The position numbers were made by a program, and so were the translations under genes. 50,158 bases of DNA from the NCBI GenBank assembly GCA_017881025.1, contig JADGRJ010000004.1:1-50158 (forward strand). The letters run 5' to 3'. Below the pieces are notes generated by a model that was given only the letters and a program-made list of their open reading frames with translations, did not search any database and was not told the DNA's origin. The stretch comes from Rhizobacter sp. Lineage in GTDB: Bacteria > Pseudomonadota > Gammaproteobacteria > Burkholderiales > Burkholderiaceae_C. Position 1 is the first letter of the stretch; each line of letters opens with the position of its first letter. Below, in pieces: positions 38,674 through 47,696 of this stretch.

Positions 38674-40107
38674 ATGGCGGCGGACGGCAGCGCATCCTCG
38701 ATGACGACGGCGACGGGGACCGATGGAACGCCGTCGCCCGCTCTGCGCGCGGTGACGCTCGCCAGCGCGGTCGATTTCGCCGGCTTCCGGCGCGCCTGCC
38801 GCCAGCTCTGGGCCGAGCAGGTCGCCCCGGACCATGTCAGCTGGCACTGTGCCGACGACGCCGAAGGCGACCTTTTCGAGACCGATCCGCAGGCCGGCCC
38901 GCTCGCCGCCGCCGCGGCCGAGCCGGTGCCGCCGGTCAACGCGCCGGCGGCCTTCCTGCCGCTCAGCGAAAGCGTCGTCCTGCACCGCGATCCCGACCGC
39001 TTCGGCCTGCTCTACCGGCTGCTGTGGCGCTTCCAGGTCGAGCCGGGGCTGCGCGCCGATCCGCTCGATCCCGACTGGCTGCGCGCCGACGAGATGGCGC
39101 AAGCGGTGCGGCGCGACATGCACAGGATGAAGACCTGCGTTCGCTTTCGGACGATCGCCGACGAAACGGGTGGAGCGCCGCTGCACGTCGCCTGGTTCGA
39201 GCCCGAGCACCACATCGTCGAGGCGACGGCTCCGTTCTTCGCGCGCCGCTTCACCGCCATGCGCTGGGCGATCCTGACGCCCGAGCGCAGCGTCCGCTGG
39301 GACGGCGAGCGGCTCGTCCTCGGCCCGGGGGCGAGGCGCGAGCAGGCGCCGCCGGCCGATGCCGGCGAGAAGCTCTGGCTCACCTACTGCGAGAGCATCT
39401 TCAACCCGGCGCGCCTGAAGCTCGGCGCGATGCACAAGGAGATGCCGAAGCGCCACCCGGCGACCGAGCCGCAACCGACGCCGGGCGGCGCTTCGCCGCG
39501 CAGCCTGCCGGCGCTGCGCGAAGCGCTCGAGCGCTGTCGCGAGTGCCCGATCGGCGAGCACGCGACGCAGGCCGTGCCGGGCGAAGGGCTCAAGCACGCC
39601 CGCCTGATGTTCGTCGGCGAGCAGCCGGGCGACCAGGAAGACCTGCAGGGCAGGCCCTTCGTCGGCCCGGCCGGCATGCTGCTCGCGCGCGCGCTCGAGC
39701 AGCTGGGCGTGCCGCGCGAAAAGGTCTACATCACCAACGCGGTCAAGCACTTCAAGTTCGAGTGGCGCGGCCAGCGCCGAATCCACAAGACGCCGGCGCA
39801 GCAGGAAGCCGCAGCGTGCCTGCACTGGCTCGAGAGCGAGATCGAGCTCGTCGACCCCGGCGCGCTGGTCGCGCTCGGCGCGACGGCGGCGCGCCAGCTC
39901 ATGGGCACGGCGGTCGCGGTGACGCGCGAGCGCGGCCGCTGGCTCGAGCGCAGCGACGGCCGCAAGGTGCTGATCGCGTTGCACCCGTCGGCCCTGCTGC
40001 GGATGGAGCCGGCCGACAAGGCGGCCGCGTACGCCGCCTGGGTCGCCGACCTTCGCAAGGCGGCGGCGCACTTCGAAGCCGGGACGACGACGCCGCACGA
40101 GCCGTAG
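38674..40107 (+). CDS. DUF4130-UdgX fusion, uracil-DNA glycosylase family protein
   Basis: A 477-residue fusion. The first about 270 residues match the DUF4130 type (RLLWRFQVEPGL, RDMHRMKTCVRFR, FEPEHHIVEATAPFFARRF). The last about 190 are a family 4-like uracil-DNA glycosylase of the UdgX type: CRECPIG, FVGEQPGDQEDLQGRPFVGPAG, the loop RRIHKTP with His371 and the end LHPSALLRM. In mycobacterial UdgX the matching histidine forms a covalent link with the abasic sugar after uracil removal. DUF4130 proteins are often found with a radical SAM protein, which is absent here. It starts 27 bases after pncB. Confidence 0.93.
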   Translation: MAADGSASSMTTATGTDGTPSPALRAVTLASAVDFAGFRRACRQLWAEQVAPDHVSWHCADDAEGDLFETDPQAGPLAAAAAEPVPPVNAPAAFLPLSESVVLHRDPDRFGLLYRLLWRFQVEPGLRADPLDPDWLRADEMAQAVRRDMHRMKTCVRFRTIADETGGAPLHVAWFEPEHHIVEATAPFFARRFTAMRWAILTPERSVRWDGERLVLGPGARREQAPPADAGEKLWLTYCESIFNPARLKLGAMHKEMPKRHPATEPQPTPGGASPRSLPALREALERCRECPIGEHATQAVPGEGLKHARLMFVGEQPGDQEDLQGRPFVGPAGMLLARALEQLGVPREKVYITNAVKHFKFEWRGQRRIHKTPAQQEAAACLHWLESEIELVDPGALVALGATAARQLMGTAVAVTRERGRWLERSDGRKVLIALHPSALLRMEPADKAAAYAAWVADLRKAAAHFEAGTTTPHEP

Positions 40108-41876: not shown

Positions 41877-43469
41877 ATGACCCCGCTTCCCGAACTCGAG
41901 GCCGTCCGAGTTGCGCCACCGGCGATGCCCGGCCACACCCTGCCGATCGGCACGCGTCTTCGCGAGTACGAGATCAAGGGGCTGATCGGCGAAGGCACCT
42001 GCAGCATCGTCTATCTCGCCTGGGACCACGCCCTGCAGCGCAAGGTCGCGGTCAAGGAGTACATGCCGGCGTCGATGGTCGGGCGCATGCAGGGATCGAC
42101 GAGCGTCGTCGTCGCCGCCGACCGCCATCTCGATGCCGTCCGCGCCGGCCTGAAGGCCTTCATCAACGAGGCGCGCCTGCTCGCCCGCTTCGACCACGCG
42201 TCGCTGGTCAAGGTCTACCGCTTCTGGGAAGAGAACGGCACCGCCTACATGGTGATGCCCTACTACGAAGGCCCGACCCTGAAGGCGGCCCTCGCCGAGC
42301 TCGGCCACGTGCCGAGCGAGAGCGAGCTGCGTGCCTGGCTGAAGCCGATCCTCAACGCCGTCACGCTGCTCCACGAGGGCGTGACCTGGCACCAGAACAT
42401 CGGCCCCGACGAGATCGTCCTGACGCCGTTCGGCCCGGTCCTGCTCGGCTTCGCCGCGTCGGCGCACGCGCTCGAGGCGATGAATCACACGCCGGCGGCG
42501 GCGCTGAAGGCCGGCTTCGCCGCGATCGAGCAGTACGGCAGCGAGGCGGGAACGACGCGCGGCCCGTGGACCGACCTGTACGCGCTGGCCGCCGTGATCT
42601 ACGCGGCGATCACCGGCAACGAGCCGGCCCCCGCCGCGGACCGGCTCGCCAACGACCGGCTGCGGCCGCTCGCGGTCGTCGCTGCCGGCCTCTACAGCCC
42701 CCGATTCCTGGCCGCGATCGACGCCGCCATGGCGGTGCAACCGAAACAGCGCCCGGCCAACCACACCGAGTTCCGCGCCCTGATGGGCGACATCGAGGCG
42801 CCGGAAGCGGTCTCGCTCGCGCCGCGCCCCGACCTGATGCAGGAGCCGTTCGCCGGTGCCGCCGCGAGCGACCGCGAGGTCACCGTGCCCGACCGGCCGC
42901 TCCTCGCCGTCGCCGAACCGGTGCCGTCGGCGACGCCCGCAGCGGTGCGCGACACCCGCGACACCCAACCGCCGCGCCCCGCCGCGCGGCGCGTGCCGGC
43001 ACGTTCGGCGGCCGACGACGTCGACCGGGCGACGCCGTCGTGGATGAAGAGCGCCGGGGCACGCTTGCTCGGCAAGCGCGCGCTGTACGGCATCGTCGCC
43101 GGCACCTGCGCCCTGATCGGCATCGCCGCGCTCGTCCTCCAGTTCGCGACCCGTTCGGCAGCTCGCGCGCCACCGGTGGCGACGTCGGCGGCGGCGTCGG
43201 CGGCAGCGATGCGCAGCGCGCCGGCGACGCCGGCCCCGGCCATCGCCAAGGCGTCGGCGACCGCCACCACCGCCACGCTCGCGTCGCGAACCCCCGCCAC
43301 GGCGACGCCGACGGCAGCGCGGGTGCCCGTTCCGGCGCCGACGCCGCCTGCCGTTCCGGCCGCGTCGCCGCTCGAGCGCCAGGCGCGCTGCACCGAGATC
43401 CTGCAGAAGGCCTCGCTCGAGAAGATCACTCCGGCCGAGACCGATTTCTTCAAGCGGGAATGCAAATGA
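41877..43469 (+). CDS. membrane Ser/Thr protein kinase homologue, predicted pseudokinase
   Basis: A 530-residue protein with an N-terminal kinase-like domain (about 25-300), an Ala/Pro-rich linker, one membrane helix (about 400-422) and a short periplasmic tail. The ATP lysine (VAVK, Lys60) and the helix C glutamate (NEAR, Glu98) remain. The catalytic loop reads HQNIGPDEIVL, so the HRD Asp is Asn174 and the metal-binding Asn is Glu179; the DFG is GFA (191-193). The glycine loop is altered too (GEGTCSI). The downstream paralogue has all these residues. The tail holds Cys505 and Cys529. Its stop overlaps the first lipoprotein gene in ATGA. Confidence 0.92.
   Translation: MTPLPELEAVRVAPPAMPGHTLPIGTRLREYEIKGLIGEGTCSIVYLAWDHALQRKVAVKEYMPASMVGRMQGSTSVVVAADRHLDAVRAGLKAFINEARLLARFDHASLVKVYRFWEENGTAYMVMPYYEGPTLKAALAELGHVPSESELRAWLKPILNAVTLLHEGVTWHQNIGPDEIVLTPFGPVLLGFAASAHALEAMNHTPAAALKAGFAAIEQYGSEAGTTRGPWTDLYALAAVIYAAITGNEPAPAADRLANDRLRPLAVVAAGLYSPRFLAAIDAAMAVQPKQRPANHTEFRALMGDIEAPEAVSLAPRPDLMQEPFAGAAASDREVTVPDRPLLAVAEPVPSATPAAVRDTRDTQPPRPAARRVPARSAADDVDRATPSWMKSAGARLLGKRALYGIVAGTCALIGIAALVLQFATRSAARAPPVATSAAASAAAMRSAPATPAPAIAKASATATTATLASRTPATATPTAARVPVPAPTPPAVPAASPLERQARCTEILQKASLEKITPAETDFFKRECK
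42201..42297 (+). repeat. 97-base direct repeat, copy 1
   Basis: This stretch is identical, base for base, to 45133-45229 in the second kinase gene. It encodes the hinge region around YRFWEENGTAYMVMP. A further 34-base identical block lies just upstream in both genes. Confidence 0.95.
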
Positions 43470-44686
43470 GCGGCGCCCTCGGCCGCTTCGCGCGCAGGGC
43501 GTCGATGCCCGGGGTCGCCCTCGCGCTGGCGCTGCTGCTCGGCGCCTGCTCGTCCTCGGAGCCGCAGACCTTCGAGAAGGCGCTCGCCGACGCGACCGAC
43601 AACCTGGTCGCGCAGACCGGCAGGCTGCCCGTGTTCCTGGCCCGCATCGAAGCGCAGCTCGCCAAGCCCGATCCGAAGCTGCCCAAGCGCTTGGTGACGA
43701 TCGATCCGATGCTCGACACCATCACCGGGCAGCAGACCGAGACGACGGCGCTGTTCGAGCGGCGCGTCACGCAGCGCATCGGCAACCTCTATCCGCAGTT
43801 CCAGTTCCTGCCGTTCCAGGCCCAGAACCTGGCGCGCGCCCAGTACCTGCTCGCCGGGACGATGTCGAAGGTGCCGACCGCGCCGATCGCCAAGCCGTCG
43901 GTGCGCCTCAGCCTCGCGCTGATCGAGCTGAAGACGGGTCTCGTCGTCGCCCAGGCGTCGGCGCTGGCGCTCGAGGAAAACCTCGACAGCACGCCGTCGC
44001 GCTACTACCGCGACAGCCCGGTGCTGATCAAGGACAAGGTCGTCGAAGGCTATGCCAAGTCGGCGGCGACGCCGGTCGGCCAGCGCGCCGACGCGTACTA
44101 CATGGAGCGCATCGGCGCGGCGAGCGTGATCAACGAAGCGACCTCGCTCTACAACGCCGAGAAGTACCAGGACGCGCTCGGCACCTACCGCACGGCGTTG
44201 TCGACGCCGCAGGGCGAGCAGCTGCGCGTGCAGAGCGGCATCTACCTGTCGAACATGAAGCTCGGCCACCTCGCCGAGGCCGAGCAGGCGTTCGGTCGCA
44301 TCGTCGCGCTCGGCATCGCCTACAACGAGCTCGGCGTCAAGTTCCTCTTCAATCCGGGCAGCGTCGACTTCTGGTCCGACCCGAAGATCAGCGGCTCGTA
44401 CGGCATGTGGCTGCGCCAGATCGCGCGCGAGGCGGTCGCCTCCAAGAGCTGCGTCGCGATCATCGGCCACACCAGTCGCAGCGGCCCCGGGCCGGTGAAC
44501 GACGCCCTGTCGCTGAAGCGGGCGCAGTACGTGCGCCAGCGCCTGGCGCTCGAGGCGCCCGAGCTCACCGCGCGCACGCGCGCCGAAGGCATGGGCTTTC
44601 GCGAGAACATCGTCGGCAGCGGCACCGACAACGGCTTCGACGTCCTCGACCGCCGGGTCGAATTCAAGATCGTCCCCTGCGGCTGA
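43466..44686 (+). CDS. OmpA-like lipoprotein 1 of the kinase module
   Basis: A 406-residue lipoprotein (lipobox LLGAC, Cys28). The N-terminal domain (about 35-205) looks like a CsgG/FlgO/LpoB-type alpha/beta fold by its pattern of a conserved VTIDPMLD strand and AQYLLAGTM, though this is tentative. A TPR-like pair follows (SLYNAEKYQDALGTYRTAL, LGHLAEAEQAFGRIVALG). The C-terminal OmpA-like domain has GHTSRSGP, NDALSLKRAQYVRQRL and DRRVEFKIV, the peptidoglycan-binding pattern. It is probably outer-membrane anchored and bound to the cell wall. The second lipoprotein is a clear paralogue. Confidence 0.9.
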   Translation: MSGALGRFARRASMPGVALALALLLGACSSSEPQTFEKALADATDNLVAQTGRLPVFLARIEAQLAKPDPKLPKRLVTIDPMLDTITGQQTETTALFERRVTQRIGNLYPQFQFLPFQAQNLARAQYLLAGTMSKVPTAPIAKPSVRLSLALIELKTGLVVAQASALALEENLDSTPSRYYRDSPVLIKDKVVEGYAKSAATPVGQRADAYYMERIGAASVINEATSLYNAEKYQDALGTYRTALSTPQGEQLRVQSGIYLSNMKLGHLAEAEQAFGRIVALGIAYNELGVKFLFNPGSVDFWSDPKISGSYGMWLRQIAREAVASKSCVAIIGHTSRSGPGPVNDALSLKRAQYVRQRLALEAPELTARTRAEGMGFRENIVGSGTDNGFDVLDRRVEFKIVPCG

Positions 44687-44715
44687 CGTCGGGCTGAAAA
44701 TAGGCGGCAACTGCG

Positions 44716-46497
44716 ATGAGCACTGCCGACGACGACGACGAGAAGACCCTCAGCGGTCCGCCGACCCCGGGCGCGGCGCGCTTGGGCGGGGCGCGCGACG
44801 ACGTCGAGACCGGGATCCAGGCCGAGCGCCGGCGCGGCCGGGCCTCGTCGGCGCCGCAGCCCGGCCATACGCTGCCCCTCGGCACGCGCCTGCGCGACTA
44901 CGAGATCACCGGCCTGATCGGCGAGGGCGGCTTCGGCATCGTCTACCTCGCCTGGGACCATTCGCTGCAGCGCAAGGTCGCGATCAAGGAGTACATGCCG
45001 GCGTCGATGGCGGCGCGCGTCAACGGCTCGTCGGCGATCGTCGTCAAGTCGGAGCGCCACCTCGACACCTTCCGTGCCGGCCTGAGGAGCTTCGTCAACG
45101 AGGCGCGCCTGCTCGCCCGCTTCGACCATCCTTCGCTGGTCAAGGTCTACCGCTTCTGGGAAGAGAACGGCACCGCCTACATGGTGATGCCCTACTACGA
45201 AGGCCCGACCCTGAAGGCGGCCCTCGCCGCGCTCGGCCGGGCGCCGCGCGAGGACGAGCTGCGCGCCTGGCTGCGGCCGCTGCTCGACGCGCTCGCCGTC
45301 ATGCACGCGGCGCAGTGCTACCACCGCGACATCGCGCCCGACAACATCCTGCTCACGCCGCGCGGACCGCTCCTGCTCGACTTCGGCGCGGCGCGCCGCG
45401 TCATCGGCGACATGACGCACGCGATCACGGTCGTGCTCAAGCCCGGCTACGCGCCGATCGAGCAGTACGGCGACGTCGCGACGATGTCGCAGGGCGCGTG
45501 GACCGATCTCTACGCGCTCGCCAGCGTCGTCTACTACGCGATCGAGGGCAAGACGCCGACGTCGTCGGTCGAGCGGCTGATGGACGACCGGCTCGAGCCG
45601 CTCGCCGTCTCTGCCGCGGGCCGCTACGGCGACGCGTTCCTGAGCGCGATCGACGCGGCGCTCGCGGTGCGGCCCGCCGACCGGCCGCAGACCGTGGCCC
45701 AGTTGCGCGCCTTGCTCGACGCCGATCTGCCGGCGCAAGCCGCGGCGCCGGAGCGCGATACCGGCACGGTTGCGTACACGACGGTTCCGGCGACGCTGAC
45801 CCCGGAGCTCGCGACCCAGCTGCTGCCGCGGGCCAAAACGCCCGCGACGCCGATTCCCTCGATCCCGACGCCGAAGCAGGCCAGCCCGGGGCGACGCTCG
45901 GCGGCATCGCTGCTGCTCGGCGCGGCGATCCTCGCGGTGATCGCGACGGCGACGCTCTTCGCCTGGCTTCAGCCGCGCGGCGCGGCTCCGCCCGCCCCCA
46001 GCCCGGCGGCGTCGGCTTCGGCGATGGCGCCGGCCGCGTCCACTGCCGCGCCTTCGGTGGCGACGCCGCCTGCGGCCAGCACGCTGGTGGCCCCGCCGCC
46101 CGCGGCCACCACCACTGCCGACGTCGGTGCGCGCGCGCCGGTCGACGCGGCGCCGCCGGTGGCTGCGGCGTCGCCGGTTGTCGCAGCGCCTGCGGCCGAG
46201 GCGAAGATCGAGCGCACGCCAGAGGCCGCGGTCGAACGGCCGCCAGCAGCGCTTCCGGTCGAGCGCGCGACCGTCGACGCCGACCCGGCGTCCGGTGTCG
46301 CTTCGACGCCGGCGCGACCGCCGCGACCGCGGCGCGAGGCGGCGCCCGCACGCGCCGACAGCGCGGCCGCCGTGGCCAAGCCAACTTCACCGCGCGCACC
46401 CACGATCAGCGCGCGGTGCAGTGATATTCTGCAAAAGGCCTCGCTCGAGCCGCTCACCGCCGCCGAGGCCGCCTACCTGAAGAGGGAATGCCGATGA
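44716..46497 (+). CDS. membrane Ser/Thr protein kinase, catalytically complete
   Basis: A 593-residue kinase. The domain (about 55-330) has the glycine loop GEGGFGIVYLA, Lys91, Glu129, the catalytic HRDIAPDNILL (Asp205, Asn210) and DFG (222-224), so it should be active. A Thr/Pro/Ala-rich linker, one membrane helix (about 395-415) and a long Ala/Pro/Val-rich periplasmic stretch follow. The last residues, CSDILQKASLEPL to KREC, match the tail of the upstream pseudokinase with the same 24-residue cysteine spacing. It starts 29 bases after lipoprotein 1, with AGGCGG before the ATG, and overlaps lipoprotein 2 in ATGA. Confidence 0.95.
   Translation: MSTADDDDEKTLSGPPTPGAARLGGARDDVETGIQAERRRGRASSAPQPGHTLPLGTRLRDYEITGLIGEGGFGIVYLAWDHSLQRKVAIKEYMPASMAARVNGSSAIVVKSERHLDTFRAGLRSFVNEARLLARFDHPSLVKVYRFWEENGTAYMVMPYYEGPTLKAALAALGRAPREDELRAWLRPLLDALAVMHAAQCYHRDIAPDNILLTPRGPLLLDFGAARRVIGDMTHAITVVLKPGYAPIEQYGDVATMSQGAWTDLYALASVVYYAIEGKTPTSSVERLMDDRLEPLAVSAAGRYGDAFLSAIDAALAVRPADRPQTVAQLRALLDADLPAQAAAPERDTGTVAYTTVPATLTPELATQLLPRAKTPATPIPSIPTPKQASPGRRSAASLLLGAAILAVIATATLFAWLQPRGAAPPAPSPAASASAMAPAASTAAPSVATPPAASTLVAPPPAATTTADVGARAPVDAAPPVAAASPVVAAPAAEAKIERTPEAAVERPPAALPVERATVDADPASGVASTPARPPRPRREAAPARADSAAAVAKPTSPRAPTISARCSDILQKASLEPLTAAEAAYLKRECR
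45133..45229 (+). repeat. 97-base direct repeat, copy 2
   Basis: Identical to 42201-42297 in the pseudokinase gene. Identity of this length, including all third codon positions, in otherwise diverged paralogues suggests recent gene conversion or recombination. Confidence 0.95.
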
Positions 46498-47696
46498 GGG
46501 TCTCACCCGTGGCGCTGCGTCGCGCCGCATCCGCCTGCGCCGCTGTCGTCGCTGCCGTGCTCGCCGCCGCGTGCGCCGCGCCGCAGGCGACCAGCGTCGG
46601 CGAGTTGCCGTTCGAGCAGGCCGTCGCGCAAGCGACCGATGGTCTCGCCACCCAGGTCCAGAAAGGCCCCGCGTTTCTCGCCAAGCTCGCCAAGCGCAGC
46701 GTCGTCGTCGACCCGATGCTCGATGCGACGACCGGCCAGCAGACCGCGGCGACGACCTTGCTCGAGACCCGAGTGAGCGAGCGGCTGACGACCAAGTTCG
46801 ACCTGTTCGAGCTCCTGCCCTTCCAGTCGACGAACCTGAGCAAGGCCCAGTACCTGCTGACCGGGACGATGACTCGCGTGGCGGGTGACGGCACGGCGAA
46901 GAAGCGTGCCCTCCAGATCCACCTCGCGCTCACGGACCTGAAGACCGGCGCCGTCGCCGCGCAGGCGTCGGCGCTCGCCCTCGACGAAGGCCTCGATCAC
47001 ACGCCGCTCGCCTACTACCGCGACAGCCCGGTGCTGGTGAAGGACAACGTGATCGAGGGCTACGCGCGCACGTCGGCGACGCCTCCCGGCCAGCGCGGCG
47101 ACACGTTCTACCTCGAGCGCATCGCCGAGGCGACGCTGATCCACGAGGCGACGACGCTCTACAACCAGGAGCGCTACGTCGAGGCGCTCGGCCGCTACCG
47201 GAGCGCGTTGGCGATGCCGACCGGCGAGCAGCTGCGCGTCGTCAACGGCATCTACCTCGCGAGCGCCAAGCTCGGCCGCACCGCCGAGGCCGAACAGGCG
47301 TTCGGCCGCGTCGTCGCGCTCGGCATCGCCTACAACGAGCTCGGCGTGAAGTTCCTCTTCAACCCGGGCAGCACCCAGTTCTGGTCGGATCCGAAGGTGA
47401 GCGGCGCCTATCCGATGTGGCTGCGCCAGATCGCGCGCGAAAGCACCGGCGCCAGGGTCTGCATGAACATCGTCGGCCACACCAGCCGCACCGGCTCGGA
47501 GCCGGCCAACGACGCGCTCTCGCTGCAGCGCGCCAACTTCATCCGCGAGCGCCTCGCCGCCGAAGCGCAGTCGCTGGCGGCGAAGACGAAGACCTCGGGC
47601 ATGGGCTTTCGCCAGAACATCGTCGGCAGCGGCACCGACAACGCCGTCGATGCGCTCGACCGCCGCGTCGAGTTCCGGATCGTCCCCTGCACCTAG
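46494..47696 (+). CDS. OmpA-like lipoprotein 2 of the kinase module
   Basis: A 400-residue paralogue of the first lipoprotein with the same order: lipobox LAAAC (Cys27), an alpha/beta N-terminal domain (VVVDPMLDATTGQQT, AQYLLTGTMTR), TPR-like repeats (TLYNQERYVEALGRYRSAL) and an OmpA-like end (GHTSRTGSEPANDALSLQRANFIRERL, DRRVEFRIV). The ATG at 46494 overlaps the kinase stop; an ATG at 46488 is an alternative. It likely sits in the outer membrane and binds peptidoglycan, close to the periplasmic tail of its kinase. Confidence 0.9.
   Translation: MRVSPVALRRAASACAAVVAAVLAAACAAPQATSVGELPFEQAVAQATDGLATQVQKGPAFLAKLAKRSVVVDPMLDATTGQQTAATTLLETRVSERLTTKFDLFELLPFQSTNLSKAQYLLTGTMTRVAGDGTAKKRALQIHLALTDLKTGAVAAQASALALDEGLDHTPLAYYRDSPVLVKDNVIEGYARTSATPPGQRGDTFYLERIAEATLIHEATTLYNQERYVEALGRYRSALAMPTGEQLRVVNGIYLASAKLGRTAEAEQAFGRVVALGIAYNELGVKFLFNPGSTQFWSDPKVSGAYPMWLRQIARESTGARVCMNIVGHTSRTGSEPANDALSLQRANFIRERLAAEAQSLAAKTKTSGMGFRQNIVGSGTDNAVDALDRRVEFRIVPCT

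Follow-up and report, generated by a model that had tools for sequence, protein, structure and literature searches.

A two-cysteine tail and its partner lipoprotein as a candidate trans-envelope signalling module in Rhizobacter and other bacteria

The window analyzed in this study is a stretch of 50,158 nucleotides from Rhizobacter sp. (Burkholderiales; GenBank assembly GCA_017881025.1, contig JADGRJ010000004.1). At positions 41877 to 47696 it carries four consecutive + strand genes in the order K1-L1-K2-L2, where K1 and K2 are kinase-like membrane proteins and L1 and L2 are lipoproteins. The part of the upstream protein that is conserved along with the lipoprotein is its last 27 residues, a two-cysteine tail (e.g. 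RCSDILQKASLEPLTAAEAAYLKRECR in K2), and not the kinase. The domain before this tail has been swapped between loci, where it can be a Ser/Thr kinase, a pseudokinase, a TIR domain, an ExeA-like ATPase, a J-domain, an exported caspase or something unrecognised. These loci probably encode a two-part trans-envelope signalling module in which the lipoprotein docks the tail and controls interchangeable partner domains. A two-part envelope system of this kind is apparently undescribed.

The tail and the lipoprotein are found together

Two sets of lipoprotein loci were compared. The first set held 84 rows, from which 5 near-identical ones were removed to leave 79 non-redundant lipoproteins; L066-L069 had been dropped earlier as the same places as L042, L043, L046 and L044. 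The second set held 46 loci outside the order, from a plasmid of the alphaproteobacterium Indioceanicola profundi and from three families of the class and phylum samples (9 of 9 matches in the family of genome G1245, 35 of 45 in that of G575, one from G617 and the plasmid match). Nine matches in the family of G575, and L223, where the contig ends at the gene, stand outside it. Eighteen tails of the first set, two of them from the window, were used to build a tail profile, with which the final 60 residues of open reading frames (ORFs) were searched.

At E<=0.1 this profile matched 61 of 5427 ORFs in the first set, a count that still includes the near-copies L074, L077 and L153-L155, and 60 of the 61 end directly upstream of the lipoprotein. 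The remaining match is a kinase two genes upstream of the lipoprotein at the same locus (L173). Coordinate comparison in 12 whole genomes placed 18 of 18 tail matches at E<=0.01 directly upstream of a lipoprotein, though this count and that of the first set are partly circular because the profile was built from first-set tails; eight weaker matches (E 0.06-0.95) in these genomes were partial and located elsewhere. The second set, none of which was used for the profile, is not circular, and there 22 of 846 ORFs matched (E<=0.1), all 22 of them upstream of the lipoprotein and on the same strand. Tail ORFs at L294 and L295 end 13 bases before the open frame of the lipoprotein, and those at L222 and L287 lie 1203 and 582 bases from it. 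Shuffled C-termini gave no match to the profile (0/6273). All loci, and the 12 whole genomes too, were selected by presence of the lipoprotein, and tails in other places could have escaped detection. The possibility that copies outside Burkholderiales lack the tail was considered and rejected, since a wider ORF listing together with the profile found tails upstream of many of them.

The tail is also constrained at the protein level. Between the five genomes that hold all four genes, the ratio of nonsynonymous to synonymous substitution (dN/dS) in the tail was 0-0.18 where defined (two of 20 pairs undefined), against 0.32-1.07 in the linker.

An earlier note on this DNA had proposed a fixed pairing of kinase and lipoprotein and a search of gene neighbourhoods for its conservation. 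The pairing is indeed conserved, but as a pairing of kinase with lipoprotein it was drawn too narrowly: the constant part is the 27-residue tail, while the kinase is not a constant partner. A link across the envelope is the most natural reading of such a fixed pairing.

Upstream domains are exchanged

First-set partner classes were assigned by hand (that of L184, an ATPase, by BLAST only); in the second set the partners of L257 and L259 were classed by BLAST, with L280 unscanned. In an even sample of the window's family (52 lipoproteins, 51 testable), the upstream gene encodes a kinase or pseudokinase at 26 loci, an ExeA-like ATPase at 5 and a TIR protein at 3; a further 7 lipoproteins follow a short or unknown protein (3 with a look-alike tail only), 2 stand behind a protein of 740-790 aa and 8 have nothing recognisable upstream. 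Across the first set, 44 of the 79 lipoproteins have a kinase-type partner. A tail gene passing the strict cut-off lies upstream in 57 of the 76 testable loci, with 3 contig-end loci untestable and the two window pairs entered as tail-positive by definition. By type, the strict tail was present in 41/44 kinases and pseudokinases, 5/5 ExeA-like ATPases, 3/4 TIR proteins, 3/3 DUF4384-type proteins, 2/2 unknown proteins, 2/5 short proteins and one protein cut by a contig end. Tail-like ends that miss E<=0.1 (L048, L122, L169, L183, L187, L188 and L189) stand outside these strict counts.

A tail gene is present at 27 of the 46 second-set loci; it passes the strict cut-off at 22 and misses it at five (L224, L274, L280, L282 and L292). 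Their partners are J-domain proteins (8), caspases (7), kinases (2) and proteins without a recognised effector (10). The earlier note had named a lipoprotein found mostly without kinases as evidence against its idea. Outside the order this is what is found, with a kinase at 2 of 46 loci; it does not hold for the tail.

Active-site motifs are kept in the exchanged domains. All four TIR partners have SEWVxEEA with its Glu, all five ATPases have Walker A and B, the caspases have GHG and DACR motifs in 7/7 and the J-domain partners have HPD in 8/8. The ATPase of L182 matches TIGR03015 below the cut-off of that family.

First-set partners mostly have one membrane helix that lies some 90-240 residues from the C-terminal end (331 residues in L084), and in most partners where the domain is known the helix follows the signalling domain. 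A few have two or three helices, and eight listed partners, some of them incomplete, have no helix above threshold. This predicted topology would leave the tail in the periplasm. The caspases differ: five from one family (L229 and L256-L259) begin with a signal-peptide-like stretch, and L224 and L292 have an apparent lipobox. The whole caspase including its tail would thus be outside the cytoplasm, which is independent support for a periplasmic tail.

DUF4384 was considered as a further effector and rejected. The matches at L079 and L086 (23.8 and 25.8) are below the Pfam cut-off of 27, with L085 unscanned, and because DUF4384 in L084 lies between the membrane helix and the tail, it is more likely an accessory periplasmic part than an effector. 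L079, L085 and L086 come from metagenome-assembled genomes labelled Candidatus Rokuibacteriota and fall within a part of the lipoprotein tree rich in Burkholderiales, by transfer or by binning error.

Some loci have other arrangements. L165 and L166 carry the tail on very short frames (119 and 169 aa) with no recognised domain, which may be adaptors or frames broken upstream. L054, L055 and L173 share a three-gene form consisting of a kinase with a divergent two-cysteine end, a protein of 740-790 aa and the lipoprotein; a weak Ig-like match under the cut-off was seen in this middle protein in L055 only. Four lipoproteins without a tail gene lie directly behind an ABC transporter (L230) or a gene of similar C-terminus (L260-L262, unscanned).

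Divergence and spread of the pair

Distances were compared at the 40 of 44 kinase loci that had a pattern-positive tail and a kinase match on a single ORF. The correlation of tail distance was 0.81 with the distance between lipoproteins and 0.64 with that between kinases. Given the kinase, the partial correlation of tail and lipoprotein is 0.66 (0 of 2000 permutations as high); given the lipoprotein, that of tail and kinase is 0.155 (p 0.09). This indicates that tail divergence tracks the lipoprotein and not the kinase domain. In Piscinibacter sakaiensis (L073), the kinase domain is of another type (30% identical to K2), yet the tail (79%) and lipoprotein (70%) are K2-like. The swapped partners and the correlation analysis speak against the idea that the lipoprotein pairs with the kinase domain as such, and it was rejected.

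A tree of 72 lipoproteins, which carries a long-branch warning for L122, L183, L174, L048, L184 and others, groups them by partner; the TIR, ATPase, DUF4384 and unknown types form one group each. Partner type changes 10 times on this tree, compared to 27.2 times with shuffled labels. The two window pairs may or may not be mutual closest relatives, as the tree leaves both placements possible.

Within the window's family, 39 of 250 genomes have the lipoprotein; in the order, 3 of 300 have it at full length, and the next match there (61.7 bits) was to the OmpA domain alone. For the class the count was 4 of 369 genomes and for the phylum 4 of 398, the window's own genome included, and it was 9 of 199 in the family of G1245 and 25 of 42 in that of G575.

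A three-part lipoprotein

L1 (406 aa, 43466..44686, +) and L2 (400 aa, 46494..47696, +) each begin with a signal peptide and a lipobox-like site, LGAC in L1 (Cys at 43547-43549) and a weaker AAAC in L2 (putative Cys at 46572-46574). Both have an OmpA domain (PF00691) above the Pfam cut-off. The lipobox, TPR-like repeats and OmpA-like domain that had been seen in both proteins were thus all detected again, but the TPR matches are below the Pfam cut-off (TPR_2 E 0.0017 in L1 and 0.0078 in L2), the L2 lipobox is the weaker of the two and an LpoB-like N-terminal domain had been overlooked.

In an AlphaFold2 model of whole L2, built from a 32-row alignment (mean pLDDT, the predicted local distance difference test, 88.0), TPR-like helices (47103..47330, +) lie between the LpoB-like and OmpA-like parts. 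Residues 36-200 modelled separately reached a pLDDT of 90.6, and the best structural match of the N-terminal domain (46599..46988, +) was LpoB 4q6z (Z 9.7, root-mean-square deviation (rmsd) 2.8, 108 residues aligned). Foldseek matched it to 4q6l (E 1.2e-4), with PelC, TolB and CsgG ranking after LpoB. Matches to the LpoB sequence families were below threshold (PF13036 16.5 bits against 22.3, E 0.0082; TIGR02722 13.9 against 110.55), and L1 was not among the listed matches to either family. The models indicate that the N-terminal domain of the lipoprotein has the LpoB fold. The corresponding domain of L1 (43568..43969, +) was placed by alignment to L2, and its TPR-like helices (44096..44323, +) by alignment to the L2 model.

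The C-terminal domain of L2 (47331..47693, +) has an OmpA-like fold (TagL 5m38, Z 14.9, rmsd 2.2, 112 residues); that of L1 lies at 44324..44683 (+). The Asp and Arg that we take to hold diaminopimelate (DAP) in such domains are D271 and R286 of A. baumannii OmpA, to which the family was aligned through 3td3. Among the 79 non-redundant members the Arg is retained in 79/79, while the Asp site is Ser in 74 and Gly in 5; the Ser lies at 44474-44476 in L1 and 47484-47486 in L2. In the second set the Asp site is Ser in 42 of 46, and the pattern did not resolve the other four. Two cysteines of the OmpA-like domain are conserved in 79/79 and 78/79 non-redundant members.

Of 32 aligned rows, 30 extend to the residue after the lipid-bearing Cys, and none of these has Asp there. 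In E. coli, lipoproteins without Asp after this Cys are sorted to the outer membrane, and by this rule an outer-membrane location is predicted.

A kinase and a pseudokinase in Rhizobacter

The layout of the window locus is as the earlier note had described it: ORF coordinates confirm four genes in kinase-lipoprotein alternation, with ATGA overlaps at 43466-43469 (K1/L1) and 46494-46497 (K2/L2) on the + strand and a gap of 29 bases between the two pairs. The one membrane helix claimed for each kinase-like protein was borne out by hydropathy, and each also has the C-terminal tail. The pairs are paralogues (over the alignment, K1 and K2 are 55% identical and L1 and L2 61%), and the whole quartet was present in 5 of 6 genomes of the genus searched (the window's own, G001, G002, G003 and G005), while the sixth, G004, has a single pair only. 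The quartet is therefore not a chance arrangement.

K2 (593 aa, 44716..46497, +) is a membrane-anchored Ser/Thr kinase. In its kinase domain (44899..45726, +), alignment shows a complete catalytic set: the VAIK Lys (44977-44988), the EAR Glu, the HRD Asp (45322-45330) and the DFG Asp (LLDFG, 45373-45387). One strong hydrophobic helix (residues about 400-418; 45913..45969, +) is followed by a Pro/Ala-rich stretch and then by the tail at 46414..46494 (+). K1 (530 aa, 41877..43469, +; PF00069 E 1.5e-17) has the same plan, with a helix at residues about 403-421, a Pro/Ala-rich stretch and the tail RCTEILQKASLEKITPAETDFFKRECK at 43386..43466 (+).

However, K1 cannot be counted as a second kinase, as had been assumed. 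In its kinase-like domain (41967..42794, +), HRD has become HQN (42390-42398) and DFG has become GFA (LLGFA, 42441-42455), with the VAIK-type Lys and helix-C Glu retained. The HRD and DFG aspartates are lost, and K1 is therefore a pseudokinase. Both aspartates are gone from its orthologues in 5 of 5 quartet genomes, where the DFG site reads GFA, GFG or GLG. By a simple Nei-Gojobori count over 10 genome pairs, dN/dS was 0.11-0.46 in the K1 domain and 0.05-0.36 in that of K2, which indicates that the K1 domain is under purifying selection and is not decaying. In the same alignment the kinase partners of L045, L048 and L183 also have abnormal catalytic motifs. Their losses differ from those of K1, which suggests more than one origin of pseudokinases beside this lipoprotein.

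A third, more distant family lipoprotein lies elsewhere in the window's own genome (L053, G000:C271:6203-7321), where a contig end cuts off the partner side. Elsewhere in the window, at 38674-40107, a DUF4130 and a uracil-DNA glycosylase domain are fused in a single protein.

Discussion

The data presented here suggest a module of two parts. The first would be the lipoprotein, with its LpoB-like, TPR-like and OmpA-like parts, predicted to sit in the outer membrane. The second would be a partner that ends in the two-cysteine periplasmic tail of about 27 residues. In most partners a signalling domain, presumably cytoplasmic, would be followed by a membrane helix, a variable linker and the tail; the caspases look wholly exported. 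The tail, whose cysteines may form a disulphide, would dock on its cognate lipoprotein. The stimulus would be a change in the outer membrane or periplasm, and the signal would run inward as altered docking or clustering switches the partner's distal domain. The window carries the module in duplicate: K2-L2 is the catalytically competent pair and would give the output, and K1-L1 is a pseudokinase pair that has been retained, probably to tune or scaffold K2.

Several points weigh against this model. Gene order and co-divergence could be explained by co-inheritance as well, and the physical docking of the tail on the lipoprotein is something we infer. Nineteen of the 76 testable first-set lipoproteins have no strict tail gene; 12 of these have none directly upstream (9 with nothing recognisable and 3 behind the protein of 740-790 aa) and 7 have a look-alike end only. 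The same is true of 24 of the 46 second-set lipoproteins, of which 19 have no tail gene (one of them, L279, at a contig end) and 5 a weak one. In addition, the outer-membrane placement is a prediction drawn from the E. coli rule, and the residue that normally holds the ligand is missing from the OmpA-like domain.

A broader form of the model, which we put forward tentatively and as falling short of an even chance, is that of a general receptor platform. One lipoprotein family and one periplasmic tail would plug any effector fused to the tail into envelope sensing, much as cytoplasmic adaptor domains serve immune and cell-death proteins. In part of the family the platform would serve envelope-triggered immunity or cell death, with kinase-pseudokinase pairs such as that of the window as a regulated form.

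A system dedicated to conflict or cell death, comparable to those in which one constant part works with exchangeable effectors, is possible though on the unlikely side. The lipoprotein would sense an envelope under attack, and its partner would act as an effector that kills or protects. The partner range of TIR, caspase, kinases and pseudokinases resembles the effectors listed, inactive kinases among them, for conflict systems in the literature (PMC7159879); catalytic motifs are kept in the TIR (Glu in 4/4) and caspase (GHG and DACR in 7/7) partners; and the spread is patchy, with 39 of 250 genomes in the family and 3 of 300 in the order. However, the six scanned proteins flanking the window locus are ordinary metabolic or transport proteins, and nine of the 10 neighbour proteins at two TIR loci had no PADLOC match at E<=1e-5, so that nothing clear in the way of a defence context was seen in either group. 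The grouping of the lipoprotein tree by partner type also suggests slower turnover than would be expected of defence genes, and a housekeeping role is just as conceivable for the partners with a J-domain or an ExeA-like ATPase. The tenth neighbour, an ATPase near one TIR locus (L168:4764-5540), matched several PADLOC ATPase models, best mad3 (E 5e-37), and is provisionally taken for a generic ATPase. The kinase domains match the PADLOC models PD-T4-6 and mad6.

It appears rather unlikely that the loci form a dedicated envelope-stress kinase pathway, with a kinase that phosphorylates cytoplasmic targets when the lipoprotein reports a defect of the cell wall or outer membrane and with the other partners as unrelated reuse. 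Such a pathway would agree with the kinase-type partners of 44 of 79 first-set lipoproteins, the intact motifs of K2 and the LpoB fold. It does not account for a tail common to at least four other recognised partner types, for the near absence of kinases from the second set (2 of 46 loci) or for the uncoupling of kinase domain and tail.

The earlier note had suggested that the lipoprotein tethers to the cell wall, and by this account the OmpA-like domain would grip peptidoglycan and pass tension to the kinase. The clear OmpA fold (Z 14.9 to TagL 5m38) and the Arg of the binding pair, retained in 79/79, are consistent with it. Tethering is doubtful, though, because the DAP-binding Asp is replaced in all 79 members (and by Ser in 42 of 46 of the second set), and we regard this account as improbable. 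A structural machine, with the lipoprotein as an assembly or export factor and the tail protein as a mere inner-membrane anchor, is quite improbable too. The fold is common to LpoB, PelC, CsgG and TolB-N, and the ExeA-like ATPase partners and the short, effector-less tail proteins L165 and L166 would suit such a machine, but no secretion or polysaccharide gene was found among the six scanned flanking proteins of the window, and motifs are intact in most kinase, TIR, ATPase, caspase and J-domain partners. That the tail is a by-product of translational coupling with no role as protein, as the ATGA overlaps in the window might suggest, is very hard to credit given its dN/dS of 0-0.18 and its retention where the lipoprotein starts hundreds of bases downstream (L222, L287) or one gene away (L173).

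The two-part signalling module has relatives among known envelope systems. In YfiB-YfiR-YfiN, an OmpA-like outer-membrane lipoprotein controls an inner-membrane enzyme, its single partner. Structures 5eb1 and 6ikk, which we take to be of this system, are among the structure matches listed. The likeness lies in the OmpA-like lipoprotein, the signal from outer to inner membrane and the cytoplasmic output; the window lipoproteins differ in adding LpoB-like and TPR-like parts, in lacking the ligand Asp and in having partners of many kinds. No YfiR-like protein was seen among the window genes scanned, though no search aimed at YfiR was made. LpoB, the activator of PBP1B, likewise acts across the periplasm on a single inner-membrane enzyme. 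Its domain (4q6z, 4q6l, 2mii) has the same fold as that of the lipoproteins, but here the partner is not a penicillin-binding protein, TPR-like and OmpA-like parts are added and the sequence match is marginal.

PknB-type PASTA kinases resemble K1 and K2 in having a cytoplasmic Ser/Thr kinase, one membrane helix and an external part. However, K2 and K1 scored 113.7 and 85.2 bits against the cut-off of 450 for the PASTA equivalog NF033483, neither had a Pfam match to PASTA repeats, and their external part is a linker and short tail with a separate lipoprotein. Zorya ZorB also has an OmpA-like domain in an envelope system; the PADLOC match of L2 to it (E 1.1e-5) is confined to that domain, and no ZorA-like motor was seen among the window genes scanned.

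Partner exchange has a parallel in the EAD and EACC1 systems described by Kaur and colleagues, where TIR, caspase and kinase domains are exchanged alongside a constant component and most kinase domains of one class are inactive (PMC7159879, PMC8195603). In the two-gene EACC1 system the EACC1 component lies 5' of a caspase (or cyclase) protein with a variable C-terminus, and OmpA occurs once in the main text, as an effector domain of an iSTAND system behind a membrane helix (PMC7159879). Other putative sensors are described in PMC10907252. The constant component of the EAD and EACC1 systems is an EACC1 membrane domain of small size or a set of homotypic adaptor domains. In the loci studied here it is a C-terminal periplasmic tail, and the lipoprotein, a separate protein of three parts, is encoded by the 3' gene. 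None of the four window proteins had a caspase or cyclase match in Pfam, without an EACC1 profile having been run. As to homotypic contact of the EAD type, in which both partners carry the same small domain, no lipoprotein ORF is among the tail-profile matches listed, in a scan of the C-terminal 60 residues. The view that the layout had not been described held up in text searches of open PubMed Central papers, judged from result listings and selected passages: these showed no description of the layout, tail or lipoprotein, and listed nothing closer than the systems compared here.

Two things are known already: effector swapping on a constant adaptor in the cytoplasm, and signalling from an outer-membrane lipoprotein to a single inner-membrane enzyme. 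If the model proposed here is true, a constant periplasmic docking tail would join the two and give Gram-negative bacteria a general route from envelope state to very different outputs. The 27-residue tail profile is a simple handle for finding further members and their outputs, and the quartet offers natural kinase-pseudokinase pairs for study.

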